Virus record (IMG/VR): IMGVR_UViG_3300037585_004733
Span: 1-56,444 of that record
DNA length: 56,444 nt
Direction: 5' to 3' (one strand)
Source: a virus
The position numbers and the translations under genes are program-made. How positions within the stretch are numbered: the stretch's first letter is position 1; the number at the start of each line of letters is the position of its first letter. Positions 4,701 to 36,736 of this stretch are shown in pieces. The notes beneath the pieces were generated by a model, which was not told the origin of the DNA, did not search any database, and saw only the letters and a program-made list of their open reading frames with translations.

Positions 4701-7333
4701 AGAATCTACAAACACAATCTCTCCCATCATCAAAGCCAACATATCCTAATGGATGGTATAAAACTCCACTACGCACTCTTCCCATTAACCATGATTATGT
4801 TTATAATAAGAGTCATAATATGAATGGTTTTGGATACGCTTTCCTTATTGGGCAACAAGAAACAAAGGTTGACACAGTCTCTGGCATGGGTGACAACGTA
4901 GGTGAAGATGGAAAACCACATGTAAGTACAAGCGCTTTTAACTCATGGATGGTTGCTTGCGCAGCCGATAAAGCTTATATCCTACATCCAAGCTCGGGGG
5001 ATGTATCTTTGTTTACTCACATGATGAAATGGGCTGGAAATGTATCTTATATGGATATAGAAGCTACATATATATTAAATGAGGGAAATAATATAGCTGA
5101 ACAATTTATTAATGAAAAAGTATACTCATGGGATACAGATCCTATAGGTATGTTTAAGCGTCTTGGCGTTACACAAAGTACTCAGGCAACTGCATATTCT
5201 TCTTATGCCAGTGGTAGTATACCATTAACAACGTCTACTGGGTCCTCTAACCTTGGGACGATTAGCGGTACAGGCCCTGATGATGCTGTTGTTAAATTTG
5301 CGATATCAAGAGGTGGTTATTGGGGCGACTATTATTTTGATATTAGGATGGAGAATACAGAGCCGGTTGGTTCTTTCGAATTTGGAATTGACACGGTGAT
5401 ATCATTCGGCATCCCTCAGATTACTAGGATTAACCCCTTTGACGGAGCTATTCATACATATGAATTTACGACTTCACTTGCACAAGGAAATGGAGCCACT
5501 ACTGATATATTAACAGGATCCTCCACTACTGGAGTAATTCCTCCTGGCAATCATTTTCTCTGCAAGCTCGAGGCCGTTAATATACTTGAGATGAGCTTTA
5601 ATTCACTATTTGATCCATCTCAATACTATAATCACGATATTGGGATATCTGCTATACTAGGGAATAAGGTTAATGCGAATTGGGCGAATAATCTGAATTA
5701 CGATTATCCCATTATAGAGGATACAACTCATTTAAGTGGGCAAACTGGAATTAGCCTAAATAGTGTCGAAATAGAAGGAGAAATTGAACTTTCGTGTAAT
5801 ACTGTTAATATACTTCCATGTGGCTCAAGTCCTATAAAAGGAATAGATCCGGAACTTCCATCTACAAAAGGTGACTTACTAATAATGATAGTAGGCGATT
5901 ATGGCAGTGATTTTGCTGCAGGCACGCATTATGAATTTGGATTTGGTGGTGCAAGTTATCCAGCGTTTGGGGGAGTAGAAACAGAATATAACTTCCCATC
6001 TCCGGCTTATTTAAGCTACAAGAAAGTAAAAACTTTTGAAACTACTAATGCTGCTGGCAACGAGTGGCCGGTAAATAGCGTTACTTATTTATTATTCAAA
6101 GGCGAAGACCAAGGTTCTTTGATGCAAAATCACTTTTATGAATTAGCAACATGCAAAAAAGGTTTTGGAGCTGTTGGAATATGGCTCGATCACGAAGAGA
6201 CTGCTTTTTTAATAAACCAGAATAGTTCAGCATCGTTTCAGAATCTTGCACAGGGTATTGCTCCTGCCCCTCGAATTGTTTATGCTAGATTTTCTAGAAG
6301 TTATTATGATCATAGTGCATTTTATACCTTTACGCTCGATCATCCAAATCATCCAAGTGACAATTTTAATTATACTGCAACCTGGGAATCCGGAGCTTAT
6401 AAATCTTCATTAGATGTGGCTAGTAATTTTCAGGGACAATTAGAAACTGGATTAACTAGTCAAGCTATTCATGCAATAAATTATTTAGATAATACAGCCC
6501 TTTATAAGCCGCGTTTATGGACAGCAACAGGCAGGATATCTGGTGGTGGAAATAATGATATATTCATAAGGACAGTTGGTGCTGATGATAATTATCATGA
6601 TAGTAATGTAGATTTATCACTTGAATTAAGAATAGGAGATACATTTAAGATAAGTAATGCTCCAACAGCAACCAAGGAATATATAGTGGCTAATGTAGAA
6701 TATGGAGTTGGCGTAAATATTATTACGATTAAAACGTCTGGAGAAGGAATACCTGCTGGGAATATTGCAACAGAAGCAGAATTTTTTGCTGAGGGTGATG
6801 GGACTATCACATCATCAACAATAGTTTTACAAGAAACAAACGTACTTTCTAGCGGAGAGGGCTTTAGTATAGACGGGAAAGTACATACAGACCTGATGGT
6901 TAAGGGCTTTAAAAATGATAGTATATTTATACAAAGTCAAGAGGCTAAAGAAGGATCGATATTAATAGAAACTCCTGATTATATTCTTAACCAGGAATCG
7001 TCTAAATCAAATGTAAATAAAGTATATGTCTCTCTTAAAGATGAGTCATATTATAATAATGGGCGTTTCAGCATGCATTATGCCACTGATAATAATGATG
7101 ACTGGAGGGTATTGTACTTTAAGCCGATTGCAGGATCTGTAGATATTCCTCCAATGCCAGCTGCTAATATAGTTGTTGGAGATATATGGGGAAACCCGGC
7201 ATTATACTTTAATGAAGATCTTTCGTCATTAAAAAATGCATCATCTATACGTTTTAGAATAATCGGAACTGATTTCCAGTCATTTAAATTAAATGATATT
7301 AATATACTATTTAGAGATAAGCATATAAGCTGA
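1757..7333 (+). CDS. Giant tail hub / stabilisation protein
   Basis: A 1858-aa product from a GTG start. Its N-terminus has the pattern F-x-x-G-L-x-N-x-P-D-x-x-x-x-P-x-G-x-x-x-x-A-x-N-V, ending in Q-V-R-Q-M-G-N-E. This is typical of phage tail-tube/hub proteins of the T7 gp12 or P22 gp10 kind, whose N-terminal region binds the connector. Residues about 470-560 (ALGDKILQFKNNTLYII...GIVWVNTNGCYIYDGKEV) look like beta-propeller blades. The remaining two thirds are Gly/Ser/Asn-rich beta structure, as in host-contact tail parts, and make it far longer than the usual 600-800 aa. It is followed by fibre genes with TGATG coupling. Tail assignment is firm; the exact role of the C-terminal 1200 residues is unknown. 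Confidence 0.75.
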   Translation: MPKKIKRVNKFEKGLINNPDKRDIPEGGLANATNVMVDIPGQVRQMGNEVTSYVLGADNSSLSGALTPGYGTHVLKADHNMVNFNTQAAKMIIVQNNQDFNVIGNGIEYADEIDTGWTGSQINPTFFDFNGTLRVSQGAFNHDDHENYVFTHINKVWFADAVDSADANAGAKKIYAHGNTSGGYGGATSGDWIDVPQRIKRPGDSLLTENDAITSSALPIVPGRPYVDIEWTNAENVGDSGEWPSDTAYKFGISYLYDGIGEVLQESLIHVCANTVNPSGDWGDDNGILGIKMGFVADTGIDIGAAPSYDPRIVGAHLYWCGDSTGDFDDPLLIAKADLIKSIVTTHDGEEALMDYEQVSGTIYRYGNNITTSGHSHLLCSKIPTTTYEAQTTFPSTVETNYARFKTAVISNRRLYAANVQRYKENNIGNITALPAENDRMLVSPANNMDLLPSSDYLDIATQDGDAITALAALGDKILQFKNNTLYIINTSQDYEYVEAEHKFLGVASPYGVMKTEFGIVWVNTNGCYIYDGKEVKNLVDGKISLIKDSTPTLINGESKEMEMPGWSQFITNSQYGQVGYITLTKQLVVFDSPYGTTNHSGDIMVYDFRTQSWTYGKDRVGLASRSNIITDYIDELIYMTFGDHSSGDTVSQYIIAGNSGVAGQNQVWTVGGITTAMVNTDITTSIILEMNNDTPISEPVNIIASEVDSDSNNTMIHKLATAIREKLGASVTVSIIDAGSTLHISYDKYSSDLATYSNETPLQFDTDVGEVPVSAGTVLAHGKHLISSDDNATTRKVYPAISFGEPTGSSESGGVSNGARLRMGLAINSSVVEADPLSYGAISPEVISEMAIQYPNSRLYDTVTNTGRHPMWSSSTAAYEGQMNASWANGEIKPDNIFEHVDLDHDTPEWEYFTTIDGFSLPYDHFHNPSGDYNTPQTSMYGYHPSSDKRFCNPGAIWIKNWLGVPGDGQSDPGTSVFPDENLQTQSLPSSKPTYPNGWYKTPLRTLPINHDYVYNKSHNMNGFGYAFLIGQQETKVDTVSGMGDNVGEDGKPHVSTSAFNSWMVACAADKAYILHPSSGDVSLFTHMMKWAGNVSYMDIEATYILNEGNNIAEQFINEKVYSWDTDPIGMFKRLGVTQSTQATAYSSYASGSIPLTTSTGSSNLGTISGTGPDDAVVKFAISRGGYWGDYYFDIRMENTEPVGSFEFGIDTVISFGIPQITRINPFDGAIHTYEFTTSLAQGNGATTDILTGSSTTGVIPPGNHFLCKLEAVNILEMSFNSLFDPSQYYNHDIGISAILGNKVNANWANNLNYDYPIIEDTTHLSGQTGISLNSVEIEGEIELSCNTVNILPCGSSPIKGIDPELPSTKGDLLIMIVGDYGSDFAAGTHYEFGFGGASYPAFGGVETEYNFPSPAYLSYKKVKTFETTNAAGNEWPVNSVTYLLFKGEDQGSLMQNHFYELATCKKGFGAVGIWLDHEETAFLINQNSSASFQNLAQGIAPAPRIVYARFSRSYYDHSAFYTFTLDHPNHPSDNFNYTATWESGAYKSSLDVASNFQGQLETGLTSQAIHAINYLDNTALYKPRLWTATGRISGGGNNDIFIRTVGADDNYHDSNVDLSLELRIGDTFKISNAPTATKEYIVANVEYGVGVNIITIKTSGEGIPAGNIATEAEFFAEGDGTITSSTIVLQETNVLSSGEGFSIDGKVHTDLMVKGFKNDSIFIQSQEAKEGSILIETPDYILNQESSKSNVNKVYVSLKDESYYNNGRFSMHYATDNNDDWRVLYFKPIAGSVDIPPMPAANIVVGDIWGNPALYFNEDLSSLKNASSIRFRIIGTDFQSFKLNDINILFRDKHIS

Positions 7334-8823
7334 TGTCAAATATAAACCATTTAAATAAAACTAAAGGATTCCGGGTAAAAGTATCAAAAAAGCTACCCAA
7401 AGACAGCGAAGGCTTTGATGGTGAAATACGCGTTATTGTTAGAGATGGAGTATGGTTATACTTTAAATATGGACACTCTTGGTATAAGGCATCCTCGCAA
7501 AGCACAAAGGTAAGTGGCAGAGGAGGCAATACTCCAATAACTATGAGTGGAGTGTCAGGTAATACAGCTACACAAATTAATAGCCGGAATAATCAATTGG
7601 AGATGAGTGATAATATTAATTTAGGTACTAATGCTATGTCTTTTAATGGGAGGGGTAAGGGCATTAAGTTTGAGGACAGCACTACTGCAAGAGTAGATGT
7701 AGCTAATACTAAAATTGGGACCCTTGGTAGAATGGTACTTACTGATAATCAATTAGATGTAAGTAGTGGAGACTTAACAATACAGACCGGTTCAGGTGGT
7801 GCAGGAAATATTATTCTAGATGCCTATGGAGGGTCTGTAACAATAAAAGATCCAACCCCAGCTGATTTGTCTCCAACTTTTATTTTACAGTCTGATCATA
7901 ATGGAGCATTGGGACCTCAGTGGTATACTCTTTTTGATTCTGATAGTCCAGCTGTAACTGATTATATATTTTTTGATTCTCATGTAGGTAAAAATGATGC
8001 AGATGAACTTGTAACATATGTATATAAATATGCACAAATACTTAATGTTGAGGATGGGGATGAATGTTCAAATTTTTATACTTTGATTATGGCAAATGGG
8101 ACTTCAAGGAATCTTATTACTGGAACTGGTACTGTAGGAGATTTAGTTAATGTAAGTATAGGTTATGGAGCTACATCTACAGCTACTATAGCAGGTAATT
8201 TAGATATAGATGGGGCAAAGATTACAAGTGTAGGAGCTTTAGAGATAGACCCGGGTGGAGCATTATCAGTTACAGGACAGGACCTTATTATTGATGCTGC
8301 AAAATACCTTCGCTTAGATGGGAGTGCTTCAGGGAATACATATATATATGAAGCAACTGCTGATACGGTCAGGCATGTTGTAGGTGGAACTAACGTTATG
8401 GTATTGTCTGATAACGGTGGCGATGGAAATGAAGTTGCCTTTGGAGGTTGTGCAGGGTTTACTCAACTAGAACCCAGCTATGATGCAGTAGCCACTATTG
8501 TAGACTTTAGGAAATCAAATAAACAGAATGTAACATTTGGGGCTGGAAACATAGGGCATGTCATATTTTACTTCCCTGAAGTATCAGGCAATTTTCAGCT
8601 ATTATTAAAACAGGATGGCACAGGAAGTAGAACTATTACAGGTCTTTATAAAGTTTATGCATTTGATGAAACTATTGCTGAGGGAGAAGGTCAAGTTAAA
8701 TGGGCAGGTGGCTCTGCTCCAACATTAACAACAGATGCTAATCATGTTGATATATTGTCATTTTATTGGGATGCTGAGAATGAAATAGTTTATGGTGTAG
8801 CAACATTGGATTTTCAATTCTAA
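7333..8823 (+). CDS. Tail fibre protein
   Basis: A 496-aa Gly/Ser/Thr/Asn-rich product. The N-terminal about 55 residues (EGFDGEIRVIVRDGVWLYFKYGHSWYKA) resemble the small adaptor domain found at the start of many phage fibres. The centre (NLGTNAMSFNGRGKGIKF, SGDLTIQTGSGGAGNIIL, TIAGNLDIDGAKITSVGALEI) is a series of short beta-strand repeats as in trimeric fibres. The C-terminal about 110 residues (FGAGNIGHVIFYFPEVSGNFQLLLKQDG) look like a globular beta tip. Its start overlaps the giant tail gene stop, and it is coupled to the next structural gene. Receptor binding or a shaft role is inferred from family style. Confidence 0.72.
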   Translation: MSNINHLNKTKGFRVKVSKKLPKDSEGFDGEIRVIVRDGVWLYFKYGHSWYKASSQSTKVSGRGGNTPITMSGVSGNTATQINSRNNQLEMSDNINLGTNAMSFNGRGKGIKFEDSTTARVDVANTKIGTLGRMVLTDNQLDVSSGDLTIQTGSGGAGNIILDAYGGSVTIKDPTPADLSPTFILQSDHNGALGPQWYTLFDSDSPAVTDYIFFDSHVGKNDADELVTYVYKYAQILNVEDGDECSNFYTLIMANGTSRNLITGTGTVGDLVNVSIGYGATSTATIAGNLDIDGAKITSVGALEIDPGGALSVTGQDLIIDAAKYLRLDGSASGNTYIYEATADTVRHVVGGTNVMVLSDNGGDGNEVAFGGCAGFTQLEPSYDAVATIVDFRKSNKQNVTFGAGNIGHVIFYFPEVSGNFQLLLKQDGTGSRTITGLYKVYAFDETIAEGEGQVKWAGGSAPTLTTDANHVDILSFYWDAENEIVYGVATLDFQF

Positions 8824-26095: not shown

Positions 26096-26538
26096 ACTGT
26101 TTCATCTCCCAGTGATTGATAAGATACTTCACCAGTTTCTGGGTCAAAGGCTGACTTAGGCTTACTATCTACAAATCCACTATCAGATAAAAATTCTTCC
26201 ACTCCCATAGTAGCTTCTTGATCCCATTGTACTGACATTTCACCTTCTACCATAGCCCAATACAAAGTAAGATATACAATTGCATCTTTAATGCGACCTC
26301 TAATATCTTCTCTTTGAGATGTATAGCCATTTATATGAGCCGTTATGCCATCCATATGCTTCATAAGAAATGTCATCAATACTTTATCTCTTGTAGTATT
26401 TAACTGCCTGGCTGTTCTTTCAAAGTTTGCAAAAACATTGATAGTATCATGAGCATATTCTTTCTGCCCACTATCCCTTGTTTCTTTAACTTCATCTATT
26501 ATTTTGACGAAAAGTTCATCAAATTGTGATTTGTTCAC
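26092..26538 (-). CDS. Conserved phage protein, DUF1599-like helical protein
   Basis: A 148-aa product from GTG 26538 with AAGGAG at good spacing, overlapping the primase-helicase end by 20 bases. It shows a pattern met in phage helical proteins resembling nucleotide-modification-associated domains: K-E-Y at 26-28, F-x-x-F-E (NVFANFERTARQ), K-H (FLMKHMDGI), then D-A-I-V-Y-L (RIKDAIVYLTLYWAMVE). Such domains are thought to act on or sense nucleotides, but the exact activity is not known. The C-terminal 40 residues are acidic. Family call is tentative. Confidence 0.5.
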   Translation of the reverse strand: MNKSQFDELFVKIIDEVKETRDSGQKEYAHDTINVFANFERTARQLNTTRDKVLMTFLMKHMDGITAHINGYTSQREDIRGRIKDAIVYLTLYWAMVEGEMSVQWDQEATMGVEEFLSDSGFVDSKPKSAFDPETGEVSYQSLGDETV

Positions 26539-28306
26539 GTGTATTCTCCTTAAATATTCTGTTATTTTCTACTCTTAGACTTACATCTAAGTGCTCACGT
26601 TCTCTATTAGCTTCACATCTTACTCTAAGATATTCTATTAATCCTGTAGTTCTGCTCTTAGATGGAATAACTGATAATAACTTATTAGTATTATAAGCTG
26701 TTCTAAATGAGCCTTTAGCTGATGCCATATTCATATTGCCTTCATGGAATGCAGATTTAGTAATCTCACTAACAGTAAATATAATTAAATTATGTCTTAC
26801 TGCAAGTTCCATCATTGCTTGAGATGCTTCTTCTGTTTTCATATTAGGATCACGTTGTTTAGATTTAAATAAACCCATATGATCAACTACGACTATTTCC
26901 GGTTTGACTGGCAACATCATAATCCTTTTCTCTAACTCACTGGCGTAAGGACTTGAATAATCTACAGTTAGCCATTTAAAACGTTTATCCATACCATTTT
27001 GCATTTGCTGATAATGAGACTTTAAATCATCTTCAGACCATCCCATTTCAATTTGAACAAATCTAGACCATATTTGCCTTGGACTCATTTCCATTTCTAT
27101 AAAGTATGTGGGCCTTTTAAGTCCATTAACAATATTTTGTAAAAGCATTGTTTTCATACTTTTAGGAGGAGCTTGAATAACAACTACTTCTCCAGGATAA
27201 ATAGGAAAATTTTCTCCTTCAAATATAGTTCCTAGATTAAGAGGATCTCTATTTAATCTATAAAAATCAATTAATGCATTTTCCATAGATGAAGAATCCA
27301 TAACTGCCTGGTTTTTCTTAGACTTATAGAGCTTACAGGTTTCTTGGCAATGACTGTCCATGATTTTATCTCCACATCCATATCTATTACCTTGTCCACC
27401 ATGAGATTCATAAGCACTTTTAATAATACTTTCCATTTCTTTAACTGTAAATGGACTACTAGAATCATCTACTTGCTGTCTCCATTGCTCCATAACAATA
27501 CGTACAATTGATTCAGGATAAAGCCATCTAAACCATGCAGAAAGACGTAAAGCAGTAGCATGACGTTCACCTTGTGCATTACTAGATAGCATATTAGAAA
27601 TACAAGGATAATTTACTGGATCAGGATTCCTACCTTGACTAATAAATTCAGGAGTTGCCGGTTCATCCTTTTTCTCTCTTTCTAGTACATCAAAGACAGG
27701 ATTGCATTCTAAATCAAAATCATCTACATCTCCAGGCTTTGTTGCTATTAATTGCATAGTAGCTTTAATATCAGATGCATTTAATTGATTTTTTGTTATT
27801 TGACACTTCCATAATCGAGCTTTTAGATTTTTAGTATTAACAATTCTAATTAGCCTCAGTTTATCTGTTACAGACACATCTGCATATTCAAATATACCTG
27901 CATTAGTCAAAGCATCTTTTACCTTTAAATGTAAGTCTTTGCAAGGCTTCCATCGAAATGCTGCTCCTGGTATTCCAAGATGAAATCCTTTATTGCCAGA
28001 AAAATATAATCTATATGGTATATCTAAGTCATCTAATAATAACGTTAATCCAATAGTTTTTTGTCTAGCATTTTCTAAATCATCAAAATCTTTGCCATCT
28101 ATATCTAATATAAATTCATCAGGCATGTAAACTAGCCCATCAAATCCTGATAATGTTTTATTTTTAGCGAAAAAATCAGTAATGCTGTCATCAAATTCAT
28201 ATAATGACATATATGTATCTCTATCTATATTCATCCAATTGCCTATTTCACTTGTATCCTGAAAGTAATGTCTTTGTGCTAATCCAAAGGCAAATTCTTT
28301 AATCAT
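26519..28306 (-). CDS. Primase-helicase fusion (AEP primase + RecA-like helicase)
   Basis: A 595-aa replicative enzyme. The N-terminal half shows archaeo-eukaryotic primase motifs: hhhD68-x-D70 (FILDIDGKD), S103-G-x-x-G-x-H109 (SGNKGFHLG) and a later D-x-L-R-L-I-R block. A Cys/His cluster near 310-325 (GCGDKIMDSHCQETC) may bind zinc. The C-terminal half is a RecA/DnaB-like helicase with Walker B IVVVDHMGLF near 468-477. Its Walker A is atypical, A-P-P-K-S-M-K-T near 378-385, keeping the Lys-Thr but losing the usual Gly residues. It would prime and unwind at the phage fork. No DNA polymerase was found nearby, so the host replicase is probably recruited. Confidence 0.85.
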   Translation of the reverse strand: MIKEFAFGLAQRHYFQDTSEIGNWMNIDRDTYMSLYEFDDSITDFFAKNKTLSGFDGLVYMPDEFILDIDGKDFDDLENARQKTIGLTLLLDDLDIPYRLYFSGNKGFHLGIPGAAFRWKPCKDLHLKVKDALTNAGIFEYADVSVTDKLRLIRIVNTKNLKARLWKCQITKNQLNASDIKATMQLIATKPGDVDDFDLECNPVFDVLEREKKDEPATPEFISQGRNPDPVNYPCISNMLSSNAQGERHATALRLSAWFRWLYPESIVRIVMEQWRQQVDDSSSPFTVKEMESIIKSAYESHGGQGNRYGCGDKIMDSHCQETCKLYKSKKNQAVMDSSSMENALIDFYRLNRDPLNLGTIFEGENFPIYPGEVVVIQAPPKSMKTMLLQNIVNGLKRPTYFIEMEMSPRQIWSRFVQIEMGWSEDDLKSHYQQMQNGMDKRFKWLTVDYSSPYASELEKRIMMLPVKPEIVVVDHMGLFKSKQRDPNMKTEEASQAMMELAVRHNLIIFTVSEITKSAFHEGNMNMASAKGSFRTAYNTNKLLSVIPSKSRTTGLIEYLRVRCEANREREHLDVSLRVENNRIFKENTREQITI

Positions 28307-28393: not shown

Positions 28394-28912
28394 TTAGAAA
28401 GGAATATCACTTGTTTCTGTGGTAGTCTCTTCAGTAACTTCCATTTTTGGCTTAACATATTCGTTGAAATACCTTTCAGCTTTTCCTTTAAAATATGCCA
28501 CATCTTTAGCATCAAACTCTTCAACTATATTTTTAAATTCAGTTGGAGCAATTTGATTTAAGATTCTAGTAAATTTACCATTCTTATAAAAGAATGCATT
28601 TACTTCTTGTCCGGTTAACTGCTCTGGACCATCATCCATCTTAATAACAGTTTCCCCTGTAGCACTTTCTAAAGCATCAGTGATACCTGCATTTGCAAAT
28701 CTAAATAAATTTCCAATTGCAAACTCTTCTCCATCTTTACCATGCTTTTCATATATTCTCATGTTAAAGTTATCAGGATATCCATCAAACCATACATCGA
28801 TATATTTACTGTCATTATAAGTGCCATATTTTGCATTACTGACGGTTAGTTTATGCCAACCTTCAGTCCATGCACCTGTGCCTTTTTTAGGCAATGTAAA
28901 TGTTCTAGACAT
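28394..28912 (-). CDS. Predicted single-stranded DNA-binding protein
   Basis: A 172-aa product. The N-terminal about 120 residues are beta-rich with aromatic residues (WHKLTVSNAKYG, IDVWFDGYPDNFNMRIYEK), in keeping with an OB-like fold. The C-terminus is acidic and ends T-S-D-I-P-F, the typical SSB tip that recruits replication partners. It lies between ERF and primase-helicase genes, which is where phage SSBs usually occur. It is not a close match to bacterial Ssb but resembles phage DUF669-type proteins in length and start. A strong AAAGGAG site precedes ATG 28912. Confidence 0.68.
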   Translation of the reverse strand: MSRTFTLPKKGTGAWTEGWHKLTVSNAKYGTYNDSKYIDVWFDGYPDNFNMRIYEKHGKDGEEFAIGNLFRFANAGITDALESATGETVIKMDDGPEQLTGQEVNAFFYKNGKFTRILNQIAPTEFKNIVEEFDAKDVAYFKGKAERYFNEYVKPKMEVTEETTTETSDIPF

Positions 28913-28922
28913 TCTTACTCCT

Positions 28923-29429
28923 TTATTGTTTCTTATTTACTTGATCGCTAGGACGAGGAGCACGTTTAATTCCGGTATTTCCATCGTCATCTGCTTGTGC
29001 TATACCTACCATCGATGATAGTAAATATCTTCTTCCGTATGTTGTTGCAGCACCTACACCATGAGGATCTTTCTTCATGATTGGCATACGGATTTCACTT
29101 TTAATCCACTCACCTGAACTATGCATTAACATTGATGTAATATAAAAACCATTATTATCATTGTCCCATCTGTTACCTTGAACTAATGCGATTTCATGTT
29201 TATTTAATGCAGGCATTGCAGTTTCTAATACTGATGCTAATGAAGCATACTTACTATTAAAAAATGGATTAGTGCTTTTAGCTTCTACCATTGTCATCTC
29301 ACCTTGAGCTTTAGCTAATGCTCCAGCTATTTTACCAATAGTTTCTGACATTACAGGCTCAAAAGCCTCAAAATCAAAATTATCAGAGTCGAGATAGTCT
29401 TCAACAGTTTTAGTTGTTTCTTCTGACAT
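28923..29429 (-). CDS. erf: ERF-family single-strand annealing protein
   Basis: A 168-aa protein with the clear ERF signature. A helix (IGKIAGALAKAQGEM) leads to N-P-F-F-N-S-K-Y-A-S-L near 53-63, then P-A-L-N-K-H-E-I-A-L-V-Q-G, H-S-S-G-E-W-I (HSSGEWIKSEIRMPI), G-A-A-T-T-Y-G-R-R-Y-L and finally Q-A-D-D-D-G. ERF proteins anneal complementary single strands and support genome circularisation or recombination-dependent replication. Length is slightly short for the family but all core blocks are present. It is followed 10 bases later by the SSB-like gene, with which it probably works. Confidence 0.93.
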   Translation of the reverse strand: MSEETTKTVEDYLDSDNFDFEAFEPVMSETIGKIAGALAKAQGEMTMVEAKSTNPFFNSKYASLASVLETAMPALNKHEIALVQGNRWDNDNNGFYITSMLMHSSGEWIKSEIRMPIMKKDPHGVGAATTYGRRYLLSSMVGIAQADDDGNTGIKRAPRPSDQVNKKQ

Positions 29430-29546: not shown

Positions 29547-30209
29547 TTACGATACCATAACCGATTTTTCCAATAACATTGTTGGGAAATTAAATGAGAA
29601 TTGTCTGTTAAACGGTTGACCGGTTGCAAGTTTCCTTACTGCATTGGCTATAAAGCTACCACTCATTGAAGAGCAGTAAGCTGTAGCTTTTGCATTACAT
29701 GGTTCTGGACTTCCATTGGAATCAGAATACCATGTCTTTTTATACTTGGATAGAGTAGGCTTATCAAATATATATTGTTGATAATGTTCTGCTCCCATCC
29801 TTCCATCAATAAGAAATTCAGGTTTTACATGCTTATTTACACATAGAGCTTCTACAGCTTGTAGTCTTGATTCCATAGAATCAAATCCAAGAATAGCTAC
29901 ATCATTATTCCCTTGAGAATAATATTCTGTAAATCGCTCATTATATGTATACACCTGACTATTATCATTAATGGACATTATATGTCCTTCTAAGGCATCT
30001 ACTTTTGACTTATTAATATCAGCCAAAGTATATTGTGATACACCTATATTAACTGCCTCAACTTTATCCATATCATATAAACAGAATTGATCTGCACCCA
30101 TTCTGGCTAATTGTAAGGCTGCAGAGCTTCCAATAGCTCCGCAACCTAATATATGAAAAACGAATTGGTCTAAGTTATCTACTAATGCACTTGATCGTGT
30201 ATTTATCAT
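29547..30209 (-). CDS. E1/ThiF-like adenylyltransferase of a ubiquitin-like system
   Basis: A 220-aa protein with a ThiF/E1 Rossmann fold. It has the nucleotide loop G22-C-G-A-I-G27, then D46-x-D48 (LYDMDKVEAVN) and N54, Q-Y and S-K-V-D-A-L. D109 and R114 lie in ILGFDSMESR. C170 and C178 (EPCNAKATAYCSS) lie where E1-type proteins often have a thioester or structural cysteine. E1-like enzymes adenylate the C-terminal Gly of a ubiquitin-like protein and pass it on as a thioester. The start is ATG 30209, which has GGGGAGG upstream and overlaps the JAB gene stop (TAATG); a TTG 18 bases earlier is less likely. Compact size matches PRTRC-type ThiF proteins. Confidence 0.85.
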   Translation of the reverse strand: MINTRSSALVDNLDQFVFHILGCGAIGSSAALQLARMGADQFCLYDMDKVEAVNIGVSQYTLADINKSKVDALEGHIMSINDNSQVYTYNERFTEYYSQGNNDVAILGFDSMESRLQAVEALCVNKHVKPEFLIDGRMGAEHYQQYIFDKPTLSKYKKTWYSDSNGSPEPCNAKATAYCSSMSGSFIANAVRKLATGQPFNRQFSFNFPTMLLEKSVMVS

Positions 30210-31111
30210 TAATAAATGCCTCCCCAAGCTACTTCATTGCTTCTATAATCTGCATAAATATCATATGCATTAGAATTACTTCTATAAACATAATCTGCAG
30301 GAGGAGCGAACATTATATCTTCATCAAGAGCCTTTTTACTTAATAAGCCAATTAAATATTCACCGGCATATTTTGTTGCCAACTCATTGTTAAGTTCAGA
30401 TACAGCTTTAGTCCAATCATTATACGATAATGTACCATCAGAATAGCTTTTATTGATTTTATCAATAGAGTCACAAGCATAATTATATTCAGTGGGCTGA
30501 ATAAATACGCTAGTTTGACGATCTTCAACGCTAGGCTTGGCATTTAATGGATAGTTTTTGGTATAAGTAGTCTTGTAAGATTTAGGTGAATAGCTAGTTA
30601 TGGCTTGTTTTGTACATAACTTTCCTACTTCCTTAAGTATAGATTTTGGTACTTTATGTTCATCAGTTATTATTTCTAATTCTACATCTTCATGACAAAC
30701 AAAAGGTTTCCATACAGATACTCTTAATTTATATTCACCTTTTAAATTAACTACCAAGGCAAAACTAAAATCACCATCAGAATATTCTTGAATAGCATTT
30801 AAATCTGTTCCAGACCAGAATGCAGACATAGTATGATGACTATGCCACCATACAAATCTAAAATTCTTATCCTTATACTTAGCTCCGGCTTTGGTATAAT
30901 AAGGAGCTAATGCTTCTTTATCTAATACACAATTCCCAGCACTGATTGCTTGTTTTAATATTACCGGATCTTTTAGATGCCAATCACCTGCTTCATCTTC
31001 GATTGCTACAAGCATACCTCCAATTTCTGATTTCTCAGTATCATAAGCTGCTTGAGAATAATTGTGTATCTTTTTCCAGTCTTTATCATCCATATAAAAT
31101 GTATTTTCCAT
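30209..31111 (-). CDS. JAB/JAMM metallopeptidase (deubiquitinase-like)
   Basis: A 300-aa protein whose first 130 residues hold a complete JAMM motif: E29 (EIGGML), then H90-S-H92-x7-S100-x2-D103 (WWHSHHTMSAFWSGTD). JAMM peptidases bind zinc through the two His and the Asp and cleave after the Gly-Gly of ubiquitin-like proteins, either to mature the precursor or to remove it from targets. The C-terminal 170 residues are a separate unknown region that includes KSYKTTYTKNYPL and a helical part. It lies between the E2-like gene (20 bases upstream) and the E1-like gene (coupled). All catalytic residues are intact, so it should be active. Confidence 0.9.
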   Translation of the reverse strand: MENTFYMDDKDWKKIHNYSQAAYDTEKSEIGGMLVAIEDEAGDWHLKDPVILKQAISAGNCVLDKEALAPYYTKAGAKYKDKNFRFVWWHSHHTMSAFWSGTDLNAIQEYSDGDFSFALVVNLKGEYKLRVSVWKPFVCHEDVELEIITDEHKVPKSILKEVGKLCTKQAITSYSPKSYKTTYTKNYPLNAKPSVEDRQTSVFIQPTEYNYACDSIDKINKSYSDGTLSYNDWTKAVSELNNELATKYAGEYLIGLLSKKALDEDIMFAPPADYVYRSNSNAYDIYADYRSNEVAWGGIY

Positions 31112-31131
31112 TTTTACTCCTTGTTTTTAGC

Positions 31132-32739
31132 CTAAAAAGGCAGTTCAGCATCATTTAAATTAACCCTTGCTTCAGAAATCGTAGGATTAGATCTATATTG
31201 ATCTAATAATGATTGCTCGAGATCTGATGGTGGTTCAAGTTCTTCAAATTCAATCTCAAAATGTTCATGACCTTCAAAAACGTTTTGAACCCAACTATTT
31301 ACATCTTCATAATCGGACATATGCAGGTATTCAATAGCATCTGAAAAATCTATTCTATGAAGATTTATCATTAAAGCTCTAGATAGTCCTGTAGAAGCCC
31401 TACAATTAAAGTGATTAGCAAATTGAGCTTGAAATTCACCTATATAGTGACTAGTAGATTCATAAATATCTAGCCATTTGCGTTTTAATTGATAATAAGA
31501 CCAATTTTCATAATCATCATATGCGGTATTTCCCATTAATCGTAAATCTATTATCAATGCTTCTGATTTTGAGAGTATATCTGTATCGTTAGATCCATAT
31601 ACTTCAATATATTTTTCACAATCAGTTCTTAATAGACATTTATTAACATCACAATAGCTATCTTTCTTATCAATATTGTGATTAATTGAGTAATTGCAAT
31701 TATCACCTCTTGATGAGAAATTTATACCTATATTAGTCCATACTAATGTATCCATTCCGGGTAATTGTCCGAAAAACATATTTTGATATGAATTTAATGG
31801 TCCAGTAGTGCCTATTTTAAAAGATTTAGTCCATTGAGATATTAACATATGATATGCTAATAAATCACCACTATAAGTGGCATTTTTTATATCACTAACA
31901 TAATTACCAAAGCAAACTTGTCCATAACTATCAATTTGACTTCCATGATGATTGAAAATAGGAACTGATGCACTTGATGATAGGTTATTCGGGTTATTTA
32001 TGTAGGGAAATTTTATTCCTTCAAATAATGGCCTAAAAGTAGCGCCATGTGTATCAGATGTATGAGAAGTTGCACTATTAGATCCCAATGTTTGCCCTTT
32101 AATTGACTCAGTAAGCAACTGGATCAAGTCTACACTAGTAAAAACATTAATATCTCCCATTGAAACGATAATTTCTTCATCTCCTGCATATATAGTAGTA
32201 TGAACATTTTTAATTGTAGTTCTAAAAATAATACAATCTCTTTCAATATTTTCATACATACCTATCTTTTTGGATGTAACATAATCTATAGTAGTTTCAA
32301 TATTGTCAATTAAATTATTGGCTGACTCTAGTTGAGACTCTATTTTTTGGATATAATTAGTCATTATTTCTTCTACTTCTTCATCATGTTTCTTAAAATT
32401 TGTATTAGATGCTCTTAATCTATACAAATCATTATCTATAGAAGAAATACTTTCTTTAAATTGATTTATCATCCATTGTTTTTCACTAATAGCATTAAAA
32501 TATGTTGATATTTTTCTTTTTTGGGGAATATCAAACTTATTTAGTACTACATTATGTAACTTTTTATAAAATCTAGGCTGCCATCTAAAAGTTGGAGTTA
32601 TTCTAAAATCAGTTCCAAATCTTTGATTCATTCGCCTTAGTTTTAATAAAATTCTTTCTTGTGGTCCAGCAATTAAATCATTAGCAATTTTCTTTAGATT
32701 GATTAGATTTAAATTTAAGTTCTTTAATGTATAGTGCAT
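31132..32739 (-). CDS. Candidate E2-like conjugating protein (PRTRC-B-like) with coiled coil
   Basis: A 535-aa product. Residues 85-150 are a long coiled coil. Residues 240-330 contain F-P-Y-I-N, P-I-F-N-H264-H265-G, then D-S-Y-G-Q-V-C276-F-G-N-Y and a helix ending QWTKSF. The order His..Gly-x-(I/V)-Cys-(L/F)-G recalls the active site of prokaryotic E2-like proteins, including protein B of PRTRC cassettes. Four further cysteines (NCNYS.., SYCDVNKC.., TDC) near 348-374 could bind zinc. The end is acidic (ELEPPSDLEQ). ATG 32739 has AAAGGAG and lies inside the upstream zinc-ribbon gene. Position between Ubl, JAB and E1 supports the call; the sequence match itself is weak. Confidence 0.55.
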   Translation of the reverse strand: MHYTLKNLNLNLINLKKIANDLIAGPQERILLKLRRMNQRFGTDFRITPTFRWQPRFYKKLHNVVLNKFDIPQKRKISTYFNAISEKQWMINQFKESISSIDNDLYRLRASNTNFKKHDEEVEEIMTNYIQKIESQLESANNLIDNIETTIDYVTSKKIGMYENIERDCIIFRTTIKNVHTTIYAGDEEIIVSMGDINVFTSVDLIQLLTESIKGQTLGSNSATSHTSDTHGATFRPLFEGIKFPYINNPNNLSSSASVPIFNHHGSQIDSYGQVCFGNYVSDIKNATYSGDLLAYHMLISQWTKSFKIGTTGPLNSYQNMFFGQLPGMDTLVWTNIGINFSSRGDNCNYSINHNIDKKDSYCDVNKCLLRTDCEKYIEVYGSNDTDILSKSEALIIDLRLMGNTAYDDYENWSYYQLKRKWLDIYESTSHYIGEFQAQFANHFNCRASTGLSRALMINLHRIDFSDAIEYLHMSDYEDVNSWVQNVFEGHEHFEIEFEELEPPSDLEQSLLDQYRSNPTISEARVNLNDAELPF

Positions 32740-32899
32740 TTTTTAATTCTCCTTTGCATTGATTGCATTTTACTTTTTTTAATCCATAAGTAGGGAAGCC
32801 TTCATATACTTCGCTACAAATTGTACGTTTATTATAATTATATTGCTCTAGCCAGACACCTTTACATACAGGACAAGCTTTTAACTCATTTTTATTCAT
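32681..32899 (-). CDS. Small zinc-ribbon protein
   Basis: A 72-aa product with C9-x2-C12 (CPVCKG), C28 and C45-x2-C48 (CNQCKG), typical of a zinc ribbon, and a Lys-rich end. ATG 32899 has AAGGAA upstream. Its last 20 codons overlap the start of the E2-like gene in another frame. As the first gene after the structured leader it may regulate the cassette or bind a substrate. No specific family was recognised. Confidence 0.6.
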   Translation of the reverse strand: MNKNELKACPVCKGVWLEQYNYNKRTICSEVYEGFPTYGLKKVKCNQCKGELKNALYIKELKFKSNQSKENC

Positions 32900-33253
32900 T
32901 TAAAGATTCCTTAATTATATTCTAAGCCACACTCTCTTAATACGCAGTCAACACATTAATTTCAATCACTTGAATAAAATGTGGCTTTAGAATGTTAAAA
33001 TTATGTCATAACAATTATTATACAGTATAAACAGTGACACTCGAGGTATGCTATCTCACCTGCAATTAAAGATAAAGATCAGGCAGTCCTTTATCTGCTA
33101 TGACATATAAATATTTGGGGAAGCCTAACTCCTTAAACTTCCCCTATGCGATGACAGTCTCATGCTTTCAGGCCATGATGAGTAGTTCACCAACTATCAT
33201 TTAATTTTTGGGTGGTTTAACCTCCACCCTAGGTTCAGGAGACAATTAATGTC
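32900..33253 (-). other. 354-base non-coding, structured leader in the cassette
   Basis: No credible ORF is seen. Several strong inverted repeats are present: ATTCTAAGCCACA (32919-32931) with its complement at 32980-32993 (one bulged T), AGATAAAG/CTTTATCT (33070-33096), GGGGAAG/CTTCCCC (33117-33144) and GGGTGG/CCACCC (33210-33229). None is followed by a T run on the minus strand. A TATAAT-like box lies at 33017-33022, but its -35 is poor. The region probably acts as a regulatory or processed RNA between the Ubl gene and the E2-JAB-E1 genes. Confidence 0.55.
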
Positions 33254-33460
33254 TTAACAACCACCAGTCTTATTCGACTGAACTGCAGCTACTAAGTCAT
33301 CATCTTGCAATTGATAAGAACTACTTACATTATCGCCATTAACAGCAATAGTTGCATTAGAATCAATATTTAATTCTTCACGCAATTCGCAAATAGTTTC
33401 ACTTTTAACTTCCTGTGTGACGAATCCGCCACCACTTAACACTTTGATCTTACGAGCCAT
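33254..33460 (-). CDS. Ubiquitin/ThiS-like modifier ending Gly-Gly-Cys
   Basis: A 68-aa product with a beta-grasp-like pattern: strand 3-8 (RKIKVLS), strand 12-18, helix 22-31 (ICELREELN), strand 36-41 (ATIAVNGD), turn with L-Q-D-D-D at 51-55, strand 56-61, then T65-G66-G67-C68. The (D/Q)-D-x-D-x-(V/L) turn followed by a T-G-G end is the layout of ThiS, MoaD and ubiquitin-like proteins. One extra Cys after Gly-Gly would be removed by the JAMM peptidase encoded in the same cassette before activation by the E1-like protein. A strong AAGGAG precedes ATG 33460. It sits directly after the ParB-like gene. The fold is inferred; the tail is seen. Confidence 0.72.
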   Translation of the reverse strand: MARKIKVLSGGGFVTQEVKSETICELREELNIDSNATIAVNGDNVSSSYQLQDDDLVAAVQSNKTGGC

Positions 33461-33477
33461 TGTGTGCTCTCCTTATC

Positions 33478-34161
33478 TTACGAGTTAACTAGTATATCAT
33501 CATCACCATCAGAATTGATAGTCAATGATAATTCTTTTCTTTCTTCTACAGCTTTAATTACTTCATCACGAGGTATCATAAAGCTCATAGCAGACTTTAG
33601 AGTATATGCTGAGCCTACATTAAAGACCCAATATAATACTTTACGTAAAGAACGTTTAGTCACTTTACCAGTATATGAAGCATACATATTAATTGTAGCT
33701 AAATAAGTAAAAGGACTTTTATTTTCTTTATTAATACGTTTTAGTACCGGAATACCGCCTAACGTTTTAAGAGCAGTGATACAATTATGAGTTCTATCAC
33801 TTATTCTATTATGCCCACCTTTAAGATATATTTCAAGCTCTTGGGATGGACTCATTTTCATAACGCCATCATTAGTATGCATAAATAATTCTTCATATTC
33901 TTTCTTTGAAGATATATCTTTTACTACTAATGCAGGTATTTGTGCATCGGGGTCAATATAAGATAGAGCTGTAGCTCTTCTATGTCCGTCGATTAACTTT
34001 TTGTCTTCAGTTATAAGTACTGGAGTAATAACACCAGTTTTCTTAAAACTCAAGGCTAATGATTTAACTTTATTAGTTCTTTCTGCCGGGTTTAAGCTTG
34101 AATATTTCAGCTCTTTAACCGGAATAGATATTAAATCATAATCATATTGTTTTAATTGCAT
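33478..34161 (-). CDS. ParB/Srx-domain protein
   Basis: A 227-aa protein. The first 90 residues are a ParB N-terminal domain: L-K-Y-S..N-P-A-E-R, helix, T-G-V-I-T-P-V-L-I, then L-I-D-G59-H-R-R62-A-T-A-L, the nucleotide-binding G-x-R-R box. A helical part (SPSQELEIYLKGGHNRI, TKRSLRKVLYWVFN) may form the DNA-binding helix-turn-helix region, and the tail is acidic. ParB-domain proteins of phages and plasmids bind DNA and hydrolyse CTP or act as nucleases. PRTRC cassettes take their name from a ParB-related and a ThiF-related gene, and this gene lies right next to the Ubl gene. Translation overlaps the 83-aa gene. Confidence 0.82.
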   Translation of the reverse strand: MQLKQYDYDLISIPVKELKYSSLNPAERTNKVKSLALSFKKTGVITPVLITEDKKLIDGHRRATALSYIDPDAQIPALVVKDISSKKEYEELFMHTNDGVMKMSPSQELEIYLKGGHNRISDRTHNCITALKTLGGIPVLKRINKENKSPFTYLATINMYASYTGKVTKRSLRKVLYWVFNVGSAYTLKSAMSFMIPRDEVIKAVEERKELSLTINSDGDDDILVNS

Positions 34162-34393
34162 TTTTGCCTTCTTTCTTTTCTTTTATTGGTTCACCGGCTG
34201 CATCTCTAATTGAGAAGAGCCCTTTTATTTCATCTTCACTACTATCGTCATCAGTATGATTTAAGATAGCGTCTACATATCCTAAGATATAAGTTTCTGC
34301 TTCTTGCATGTAATCAAATGGACGGAGAGGGTGATCAGAGACCACCCCATCCTCTTTGACAGACAAGAACACAATATAATTAGGCTGTTCCAT
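34142..34393 (-). CDS. Hypothetical acidic protein (83 aa)
   Basis: An 83-aa product with a beta-alpha start (NYIVFLSVKEDG), an acidic middle (NHTDDDSSEDEIKG) and a Lys-rich end. ATG 34393 overlaps the upstream stop and has AAGGGA. It overlaps the ParB-like gene by 20 bases, so the two are probably co-translated. It could belong to the same cassette. No family was recognised. Confidence 0.55.
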   Translation of the reverse strand: MEQPNYIVFLSVKEDGVVSDHPLRPFDYMQEAETYILGYVDAILNHTDDDSSEDEIKGLFSIRDAAGEPIKEKKEGKNAIKTI

Positions 34394-34580
34394 TGTTGCT
34401 ATTCCCTTGCTTTTTAAGGAACCTAAGACCGGTTAATTCAAAATATCGTCTTTTGGTTGCCTCTATAAGAGTATCAGTTACGGTAACGCCAAATTCAGTC
34501 TTAGCTCCTAAGCCAAGCTTCTTGAATTTCTTTAATTGTCCTTTATAGAAACCTATTAGTTCTATGCGATTAATTGTCAT
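34380..34580 (-). CDS. Hypothetical small basic protein (66 aa)
   Basis: Read from ATG 34580 (MTINRIELIGFYKGQ), which has GAAAGGAG at ideal distance and an 11-base overlap with the upstream gene. The longer open frame up to 34799 lies inside that gene and is rejected. The product has a basic patch (KKFKKLGLGAK) and a helix (TDTLIEATKRRYFELTG). Function unknown; a nucleic-acid-binding role is possible. Confidence 0.6.
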   Translation of the reverse strand: MTINRIELIGFYKGQLKKFKKLGLGAKTEFGVTVTDTLIEATKRRYFELTGLRFLKKQGNSNNGTA

Positions 34581-34920
34581 TCTTTCTCCTTTCAAGAATA
34601 TATTGTACGTGTATTTCTTTGGGCATCTTCCCGCCGAAGTAATGTTTTGTTGCAGCACATAGCCACATAGTACTTGTAGTAGTATATTCATCATAAACAC
34701 CACCACCAGACTCTTCATGTTGTAAATGTAAAGTATAATCTGATGTTGGAAAGCTTCTATTTGAAAATACGAGACTAATCTTTTCGTCTCCTTTAGCAAG
34801 ATAATCCAAGAAAGTATCTGCTCCTGCTACAAATGGTTCTTTTACTAAGTTATAATTTGGCTCATCAAACACCCACATAGGGCCATGTTTATAAGCATTT
34901 ATAACACTTAAACTGTTCAT
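34570..34920 (-). CDS. Conserved viral protein, DUF6717-like
   Basis: A 116-aa product with W-V-F-D-E (GPMWVFDEPNYNLVKEPFVAG), F-S-x-x-x-F-P, and W-L-C-A-A-T-K-H-Y-F near the end. From memory, this order resembles a small family of unknown function (DUF6717-like) found in phages and large viruses. The conserved Trp and Cys suggest a compact domain. It is coupled to the 105-aa gene upstream (TAATG) and overlaps the 66-aa gene downstream. No activity is known. Confidence 0.5.
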   Translation of the reverse strand: MNSLSVINAYKHGPMWVFDEPNYNLVKEPFVAGADTFLDYLAKGDEKISLVFSNRSFPTSDYTLHLQHEESGGGVYDEYTTTSTMWLCAATKHYFGGKMPKEIHVQYILERRKNDN

Positions 34921-36660: not shown

Positions 36661-36666
36661 ATTTAG

Positions 36667-36736
36667 TTGCGGGGGACAGAGTCGAACTGCCCAGATCAAG
36701 CTTATGAGGCTTAAATTGCTACCGGCATTCCCCGCT
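36667..36736 (-). tRNA. tRNA with CAT anticodon (Met/fMet-like), short D arm
   Basis: On the minus strand the 70 bases fold as a tRNA. The acceptor has six G-C pairs (GCGGGG with CCCCGC), position 1 A opposite A at 72, and discriminator A. The anticodon arm is TAAGC-CTCATAA-GCTTG, the variable loop is ATCTG, and the T arm is GGCAG-TTCGACT-CTGTC. The D arm is reduced to TGC-CGGTA-GCA. The 1-72 mismatch and CAT anticodon recall bacterial initiator tRNA, but the anticodon stem lacks its three G-C pairs. CCA is not encoded. It lies at the start of the structured RNA region. Confidence 0.72.

Follow-up and report, generated by a model that had tools for sequence, protein, structure and literature searches.

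Full prokaryotic sets of a ubiquitin-like modifier (Ubl), an activating enzyme (E1), a conjugating enzyme (E2) and a JAB peptidase are best known as anti-phage systems, or as operons of obscure role on plasmids and in genomes. Iyer, Burroughs and Aravind described in 2006 operons of types 6a-6e with Ubl, JAB, E1-like and E2-like genes (PMC1779556), and bacterial Ubl/E1/E2/JAB systems are now known as anti-phage defenses (PMC10097602). In the Bil system, BilA has two Ubl domains, BilD combines two adenylation domains with a Cys domain, and BilB carries a CEHH motif (PMC11354881). Here we analyze such a gene set on the phage side, in the IMG/VR virus record IMGVR_UViG_3300037585_004733, whose whole 56,444-base stretch we call the window. 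The window carries the tailed-phage genes terminase, portal and head; a megablast search with it gave no match, and the best terminase matches are only about 25% identical. On its minus strand, at 33460-29547, lies a four-gene cassette encoding a Ubl, an E2-like protein, a JAMM/JAB peptidase and a single-domain E1, which we consider reasonably likely to be a complete, reversible Ubl protein-conjugation pathway built into the DNA-replication module of the phage. A gene set for attaching and removing Ubl tags, of a kind best known from bacterial defense, is borne by this phage, by dozens of uncultured relatives and by crAss-like gut phages.

A conserved four-gene module

The genes that the initial annotation had named are all found on the minus strand where it had placed them. 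Their order is ParB-N, Ubl, a gap of 354 nucleotides (nt), zinc ribbon, E2-like, JAB, E1, Erf, a protein like the single-stranded DNA-binding protein (SSB), and primase-helicase. The cassette proper consists of the following genes (aa, amino acids).

33254..33460, minus strand: Ubl, 68 aa, beta-grasp modifier with the C terminus K64-T-G-G-C68 (Pfam ThiS, AlphaFold2, Foldseek, K-x-G-G)
31132..32739, minus strand: E2-like protein, 535 aa (conservation of P245, C276 and G278; profile match to cellular E2-like proteins)
30209..31111, minus strand: JAB/JAMM peptidase, 300 aa (Prok-JAB; invariant JAMM residues)
29547..30209, minus strand: E1, single-domain ThiF-like activating enzyme, 220 aa (Pfam ThiF; PDB profile matches)

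The open reading frame (ORF) listed for E1, 29547-30227, begins at a TTG. The ATG at 30209 is the more likely start, giving 220 aa, because this codon matches the family start MINxR and overlaps the stop codon of JAB (TAATG).

With JAB as bait, 80 of 257 relatives in IMG/VR were kept and their loci analyzed by iterated profile searches. A locus entered a count only if it had enough flank: at least 3.5 kb upstream for E2 and Ubl, 700 bases downstream for E1, and 2.5 kb downstream for the replication genes. Some loci are near-identical copies, and the counts do not stand for independent events. The E2-like gene was found in 51/51 loci, and so was the Ubl, 50 times by profile and once, in locus L085, as a divergent 96-aa ORF ending NNKVGG that was found by motif search and read by eye. 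The order Ubl-E2-JAB is kept in 49 of 50 loci, the remaining one (L026) having its Ubl between E2 and JAB. E1 is present in 76/76 loci, directly after JAB in 75, and at least one of SSB, Erf and primase-helicase follows downstream in 70/70. Because a JAB bait biases these counts, we used E1 as a second bait with a 6-kb flank, which returned JAB in 56/56 loci, E2 in 31/31 and Ubl in 28/31; two of the three misses are contigs (L028 and L029) whose Ubl lies beyond that flank. By either bait, the relatives do not lose cassette genes at random. Moreover, the pairwise distances of the cassette genes correlate with one another at 0.76-0.92 (E2-JAB 0.92, Ubl-JAB 0.88, JAB-E1 0.85), and less with those of SSB or primase-helicase (0.52-0.74), suggesting that the cassette was inherited as one module. 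All four genes are under purifying selection, with a median dN/dS of 0.17 for Ubl, 0.20 for E1, 0.26 for JAB and 0.31 for E2. The cassette is a conserved phage module.

Profiles of E1 and JAB also match, beyond doubt, crAss-like phages (Steigviridae), Flavobacterium phage FpV4 and the gut contig MT835544 (E 2e-34 to 2e-63 for E1, 6e-19 to 1e-40 for JAB). The order Ubl/E2/JAB/E1 is kept in the crAss-like phages and FpV4, where current annotations read "ThiF," "thiamine biosynthesis protein" and "metalloprotease." Upstream of JAB, these phages encode a protein of about 200-290 aa whose N-terminal domain has a Ubl-like pattern and ends KIKSG or KSGG (the Ubl-like protein of MT835544 has 78 aa), as well as a protein of about 370-490 aa; in the latter, H-S-H...C-x-G is invariant in 10/10 sequences from the crAss-like phages and FpV4. 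Their cassettes adjoin primase and/or uracil-DNA glycosylase genes, together with exonuclease genes in the crAss-like phages. In the E1 tree, support is 100/99 for the window family, 97/98 for crAss-like phages plus FpV4, and 90/95 for both together. Two of these loci hold additional genes: in cr106_1 (L102), an HNH endonuclease gene (975-1490) splits the ORF of the Ubl domain (695-973) from that of the C-terminal extension (1506-1898), and in MT835544 (L005) a 445-aa ORF directly after E1 (6954-8291) looks reverse transcriptase-like, by eye, from its YADD motif.

In addition, 11 divergent loci (L086-L096) turned up when bacterial and archaeal genomes were scanned, in Verrucomicrobia, Myxococcales, other Deltaproteobacteria, Calditrichaeota, KSB1, a haloarchaeon, a Lokiarchaeota bin (L096) and others. 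In nearly all of those that are sufficiently long, an E2-like protein of about 365-480 aa is followed by JAB and E1 as in the window, and a Ubl lies upstream wherever one could be recognised. No phage hallmark was seen in the flanks scanned, and plasmids searched for the cellular-type E2 gave no match.

Modifier, peptidase and enzymes

The 68-aa protein had been described as beta-grasp-like and ending in Gly-Gly-Cys, and both points hold. By sequence it is closest to ThiS/MoaD (Pfam ThiS, E 6e-4). Its AlphaFold2 model, made with 37 sequences, is a beta-grasp (strand-strand-helix-strand-strand, pLDDT 83) with a floppy C terminus, for which the sole Foldseek match in the PDB below 1e-3 is the ThiS-like Mth1743, SUMO and ubiquitin chains coming next. 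K-x-G-G is found in 49/49 distinct Ubls; given that just 2 of 1541 other ORFs of 60-130 aa in the same loci have a similar tail, this ending is not due to chance. Seven Ubls end at the GG and 42 continue with a tail of 1-60 residues, the terminal Cys of the window's protein not being conserved; such a removable tail fits processing by JAB. The Ubl combines the modeled fold of a beta-grasp modifier with a C-terminal di-glycine. Because Lys64 precedes its tail, the tryptic remnant expected in mass spectrometry is Thr-Gly-Gly rather than the Gly-Gly proposed earlier.

The JAB protein matches Pfam Prok-JAB (E 1.6e-4), the PADLOC JAB profile (1e-7) and, among PDB profiles, an archaeal Rpn11-like deubiquitinase (E 3e-4). 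The full JAMM motif reported in the initial annotation is confirmed: E29, H90, H92, S100 and D103 (E..HxHx7SxxD) are invariant in 77 sequences, allowing at most one gap. To judge by these residues, the active site of JAB is that of a complete JAMM peptidase of the deconjugating kind, and the enzyme is predicted both to trim the Ubl and to release it from conjugates. The ThiF/E1 assignment holds as well (Pfam ThiF, E 2.4e-19), with PDB profile matches to UBA5, UBA6, MccB, ThiF, MoeB and Cap2. The only Cys of the window's E1 that is invariant in 37/37 E1s of the window family, crAss-like phages, cellular loci and PRTRC is C171 (C177 in the 226-aa numbering), the candidate catalytic Cys. With this residue and an ATP-binding GxGxxG, the protein is predicted to be active as an E1.

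The 535-aa protein matched no family in Pfam, PHROGs or curated profile scans. As a query on its own it found no relatives in IMG/VR or INPHARED, close relatives being reached via JAB. It has an N-terminal GPQ motif, a coiled coil and a C-terminal Cys cluster (C348, C368, C374), and a UBC-like core is predicted at about 145-320, with PYI at 245-247 and C276-x-G278. Of the His..GQVCFG pattern noted earlier, Cys276 and Gly278 are invariant but the His varies; what is conserved upstream is (H/F)PYI at 244-247. Within this (H/F)PYI...C-x-G element, P245, C276 and G278 are invariant in 54/54 relatives. Outside the C276 region conservation is low, the mean column identity being 15%. The cellular E2-like proteins read HPHV..dG.pCLGN, with H, P, C and G invariant in 10/10, and hhalign joins the phage and cellular families with a probability of 96.8% (E 2.9e-10), or 92.8% (E 4.1e-7) for the core alone. 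While full-length E2 alignments compared with PDB profiles were swamped by coiled-coil matches, a trimmed profile of the cellular core searched against all PDB sequences up to E 10 matched ubiquitin- or SUMO-conjugating enzymes in 26 of 27 cases; in the UBE2L3 alignment, which spans the strands, the HPN and the catalytic Cys fall in register. Foldseek also found six close viral models in BFVD with the same fold as the model of the window's protein, all unnamed proteins at 13-19% identity. On the strength of its active site and its homology, we regard the 535-aa protein as E2-like, with a putative UBC fold and with C276 as its candidate catalytic Cys.

At its C terminus, the window's E2-like protein ends ...NDAELPF and that of locus L011 ...DADLPF, resembling an SSB tip. 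The SSB-like protein of the window, which has no Pfam match, ends ...SDIPF, and a PF end is found in 54 of 60 homologues. We rejected the ...ELPF end as a general link between E2 and replication, since it is present in the window and L011 only.

Genomic setting and possible function

Around the cassette, the same strand carries the features below.

34142..34393, minus strand: 83-aa protein, function unassigned, upstream of ParB/Ubl (homologues upstream of Ubl)
33478..34161, minus strand: ParB-N-domain protein, 227 aa, neighbor outside the conserved cassette (PHROG ParB, 2.7e-8)
32900..33253, minus strand: intergenic, strong predicted RNA structure between Ubl and zinc ribbon (fold z-score -5.0)
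32681..32899, minus strand: zinc-ribbon protein, 72 aa, accessory, overlapping the E2 start (Pfam Zn_ribbon_TFIIB, 6.8e-5)
28923..29429, minus strand: Erf-type single-strand annealing protein, context (Pfam ERF, 2.2e-21; PHROG, 4.4e-38)
28394..28912, minus strand: SSB-like protein with an acidic ...DIPF C-terminal tip, context (PF tip in homologues)
26519..28306, minus strand: primase-helicase, context (PHROG DnaB-like, 8.9e-21; primase, 6e-20)

ParB had been counted as part of the cassette. The protein has a weak Pfam match to ParB-N (E 1.4e-3) and a clear one in PHROGs; the window and L073 are the only loci where it adjoins the Ubl (1/51 relatives with the JAB bait, 0/31 with the E1 bait), and it is therefore a neighbor, not a member. 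The zinc ribbon is confirmed, at 22.6 bits against a cut-off of 22; its gene occurs in 12 loci, the window included, as do homologues of the 83-aa gene. The intergenic stretch contains a 12-bp terminator-like hairpin (33144-33117, minus strand) and has no match in Rfam, and pieces of it reappear immediately downstream of the Ubl in L011 and L007. A DUF6717 protein (Pfam 2.5e-17) is encoded at 34570-34920 in the same minus-strand gene run, and a tRNA-Met (CAT) gene lies at 36666-36736, upstream of the early operon.

We favor a cycle of conjugation and deconjugation because of the completeness of the cassette, its invariant catalytic residues and the removable Ubl tails; conjugation itself, the E2 role of the 535-aa protein and the targets are what we infer. 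Judged by position only, the cassette probably acts on the phage replication and recombination machinery, the likeliest target because the replication setting recurs in several phage groups. In such a cycle, JAB would trim the Ubl precursor to expose ...K-T-G-G, whose terminal glycine the single-domain E1 would adenylate with ATP before capturing the Ubl on C171. C276 of the E2-like protein would then receive the Ubl, and the coiled coil and Cys-rich part of that protein may select the substrate. The Ubl would be joined to lysines of proteins at the replication or recombination complex, for which phage SSB, Erf, primase-helicase and a host partner are candidates, and JAB would remove it again.

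Several observations weigh against this reading. The UBC-like core that the initial annotation required of the 535-aa protein stands only in part: HP..C-x-G is conserved and the core profile of the relatives matches E2 enzymes in register, but Foldseek of the full-length AlphaFold2 model of the window's E2-like protein (pLDDT 75) against the PDB gave no UBC match. Nor did a combined phage-plus-cellular core profile find a UBC in the PDB, and the UBC matches of the cellular core are each below threshold (best E 0.099) and mutually related. In the window and its closest relatives, a Phe takes the place of the upstream His in the E2 motif, and the Ubl and E2 of crAss-like phages are linked to the window family weakly by profile. 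Finally, the position in the early operon is also compatible with host takeover.

Such a takeover, or a counter-defense, would have the phage Ubl conjugated to host proteins, or Ubl and JAB fed as decoys into host systems of the Bil or CBASS type; the initial annotation had named the marking of host or virion proteins, or the subversion of a host Ubl defense, as possible roles. We consider takeover and counter-defense unlikely even though the early-gene position and the bacterial Ubl/E1/E2/JAB systems known as anti-phage defenses (PMC10097602; Bil, PMC11354881) speak for them: the module is complete, fixed in place across the lineage and inherited as a unit, which fits a core phage function better than a usually patchy counter-defense gene, and a decoy needs fewer than all four enzymes. 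Sulfur transfer, in which the Ubl C terminus would become a thiocarboxylate for thiolation of tRNA, DNA or a cofactor, as in ThiS, MoaD, Urm1 or TtuB, is disfavored and appears improbable because no sulfurtransferase, thiolase or cofactor gene was seen among the window ORFs scanned, which are part of the total. The E1 has no rhodanese domain, and the E2-like gene, which encodes an invariant Cys and an HP motif, is never missing although sulfur transfer does not need it; these points stand against the ThiS/MoaD likeness of the Ubl, the ThiF-like E1 and the JAB plus ThiS-like operons known from sulfur pathways (PMC1779556). Direct tagging by E1 and Ubl as in SAMP/Urm1, with the 535-aa protein serving as scaffold or adaptor instead of acting as a UBC-type enzyme, would account for the Foldseek result and the low E2 conservation but is very improbable given the invariance of C276 and G278 and the homology of the active-site segment to the HPHV..CLGN proteins.

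It is possible, if short of probable, that a reversible Ubl cycle belongs to the core of replication and recombination throughout the window's family, crAss-like Steigviridae and Fipvunavirus, controlling the phage replisome in a way comparable to the action of ubiquitin and SUMO on PCNA and related proteins in eukaryotes. If the conjugation pathway is real, bacterial viruses use Ubl tagging for themselves, through a standing gene set of the replication module. What phages tag becomes directly testable. The cassette is also present in cultivable crAss-like phages, with its genes filed as thiamine biosynthesis protein and metalloprotease, and its occurrence in assemblies of bacteria and archaea, one Lokiarchaeota bin among them, bears on the spread of Ubl systems.

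Comparison with described systems

In its predicted activities the cassette parallels Bil, PRTRC and the type 6 operons. The initial annotation had seen a complete Ubl pathway in the early replication operon and had set it beside PRTRC and Bil. Ubl, E2-like, JAB and E1 are indeed in the replication region; ParB and the PRTRC membership are not upheld. The plasmid cassette PRTRC (TIGR03734-TIGR03741: ParB, C for Ubl, B for E2-like, A for JAB, and ThiF) has the order C-(F)-B-A-ThiF, which matches Ubl-(zinc ribbon)-E2-JAB-E1, and ParB lies upstream in the window as in the Candidatus Manganitrophus plasmid CP114559; a Polaromonas set was also compared. The E1 is related to PRTRC ThiF with 97% profile probability. 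In contrast, the scores of the window's proteins are far below the curated cut-offs (ThiF 22.4 vs 144.75 bits, A 15.3 vs 101.8, ParB 16.4 vs 278.6), the PRTRC B profile has no match among them, and Ubl, E2 and JAB are not detectably related by profile to the two or three PRTRC sequences used. Both PRTRC_C proteins examined lack a C-terminal GG, ParB is absent from nearly all relatives of the window, and the PRTRC E1s sit apart on a long branch of the E1 tree. With the cut-offs failed and ParB no standing member, we rejected identity with PRTRC.

An open-access literature search, preprints excluded, found no published description of a phage Ubl-E1-E2-JAB cassette, which is weak evidence; in the 2021 article of Iyer et al. 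on jumbo phages, JAB, ThiF and Ubl go unmentioned. Bil has the same four activities and, by gene letters, the same order Ubl, E2, JAB, E1. Unlike the tandem-Ubl BilA, the window's Ubl is a single 68-aa domain, and its E1 is a single adenylation domain of 220 aa rather than a two-domain E1 with a Cys domain. The E2-like protein has (H/F)PYI..C-x-G in place of CEHH: after C276 only G278 is invariant, with no conserved E/H/H at +6/+8/+13. Since the tandem Ubl, the two-domain E1 and CEHH are all missing, we rejected identity with Bil, from which the cassette also differs in being phage-borne. Types 6a-6e likewise unite Ubl, JAB, E1-like and E2-like genes in one operon, as the window does, but the cases listed lie in bacterial genomes, plasmids and ICEs, and the phage case in that paper is a lambda/T1 tail Ubl with JAB but without E1 or E2 (PMC1779556). 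The lambda tail assembly proteins I and K resemble the cassette in that a phage Ubl and a JAB (JAB-NlpC) are encoded together (PMC1779556); they belong to a tail module with the JAB fused to NlpC/P60 and no E1 or E2, whereas the window's Ubl, E2-like, JAB and E1 genes stand together in the replication module.

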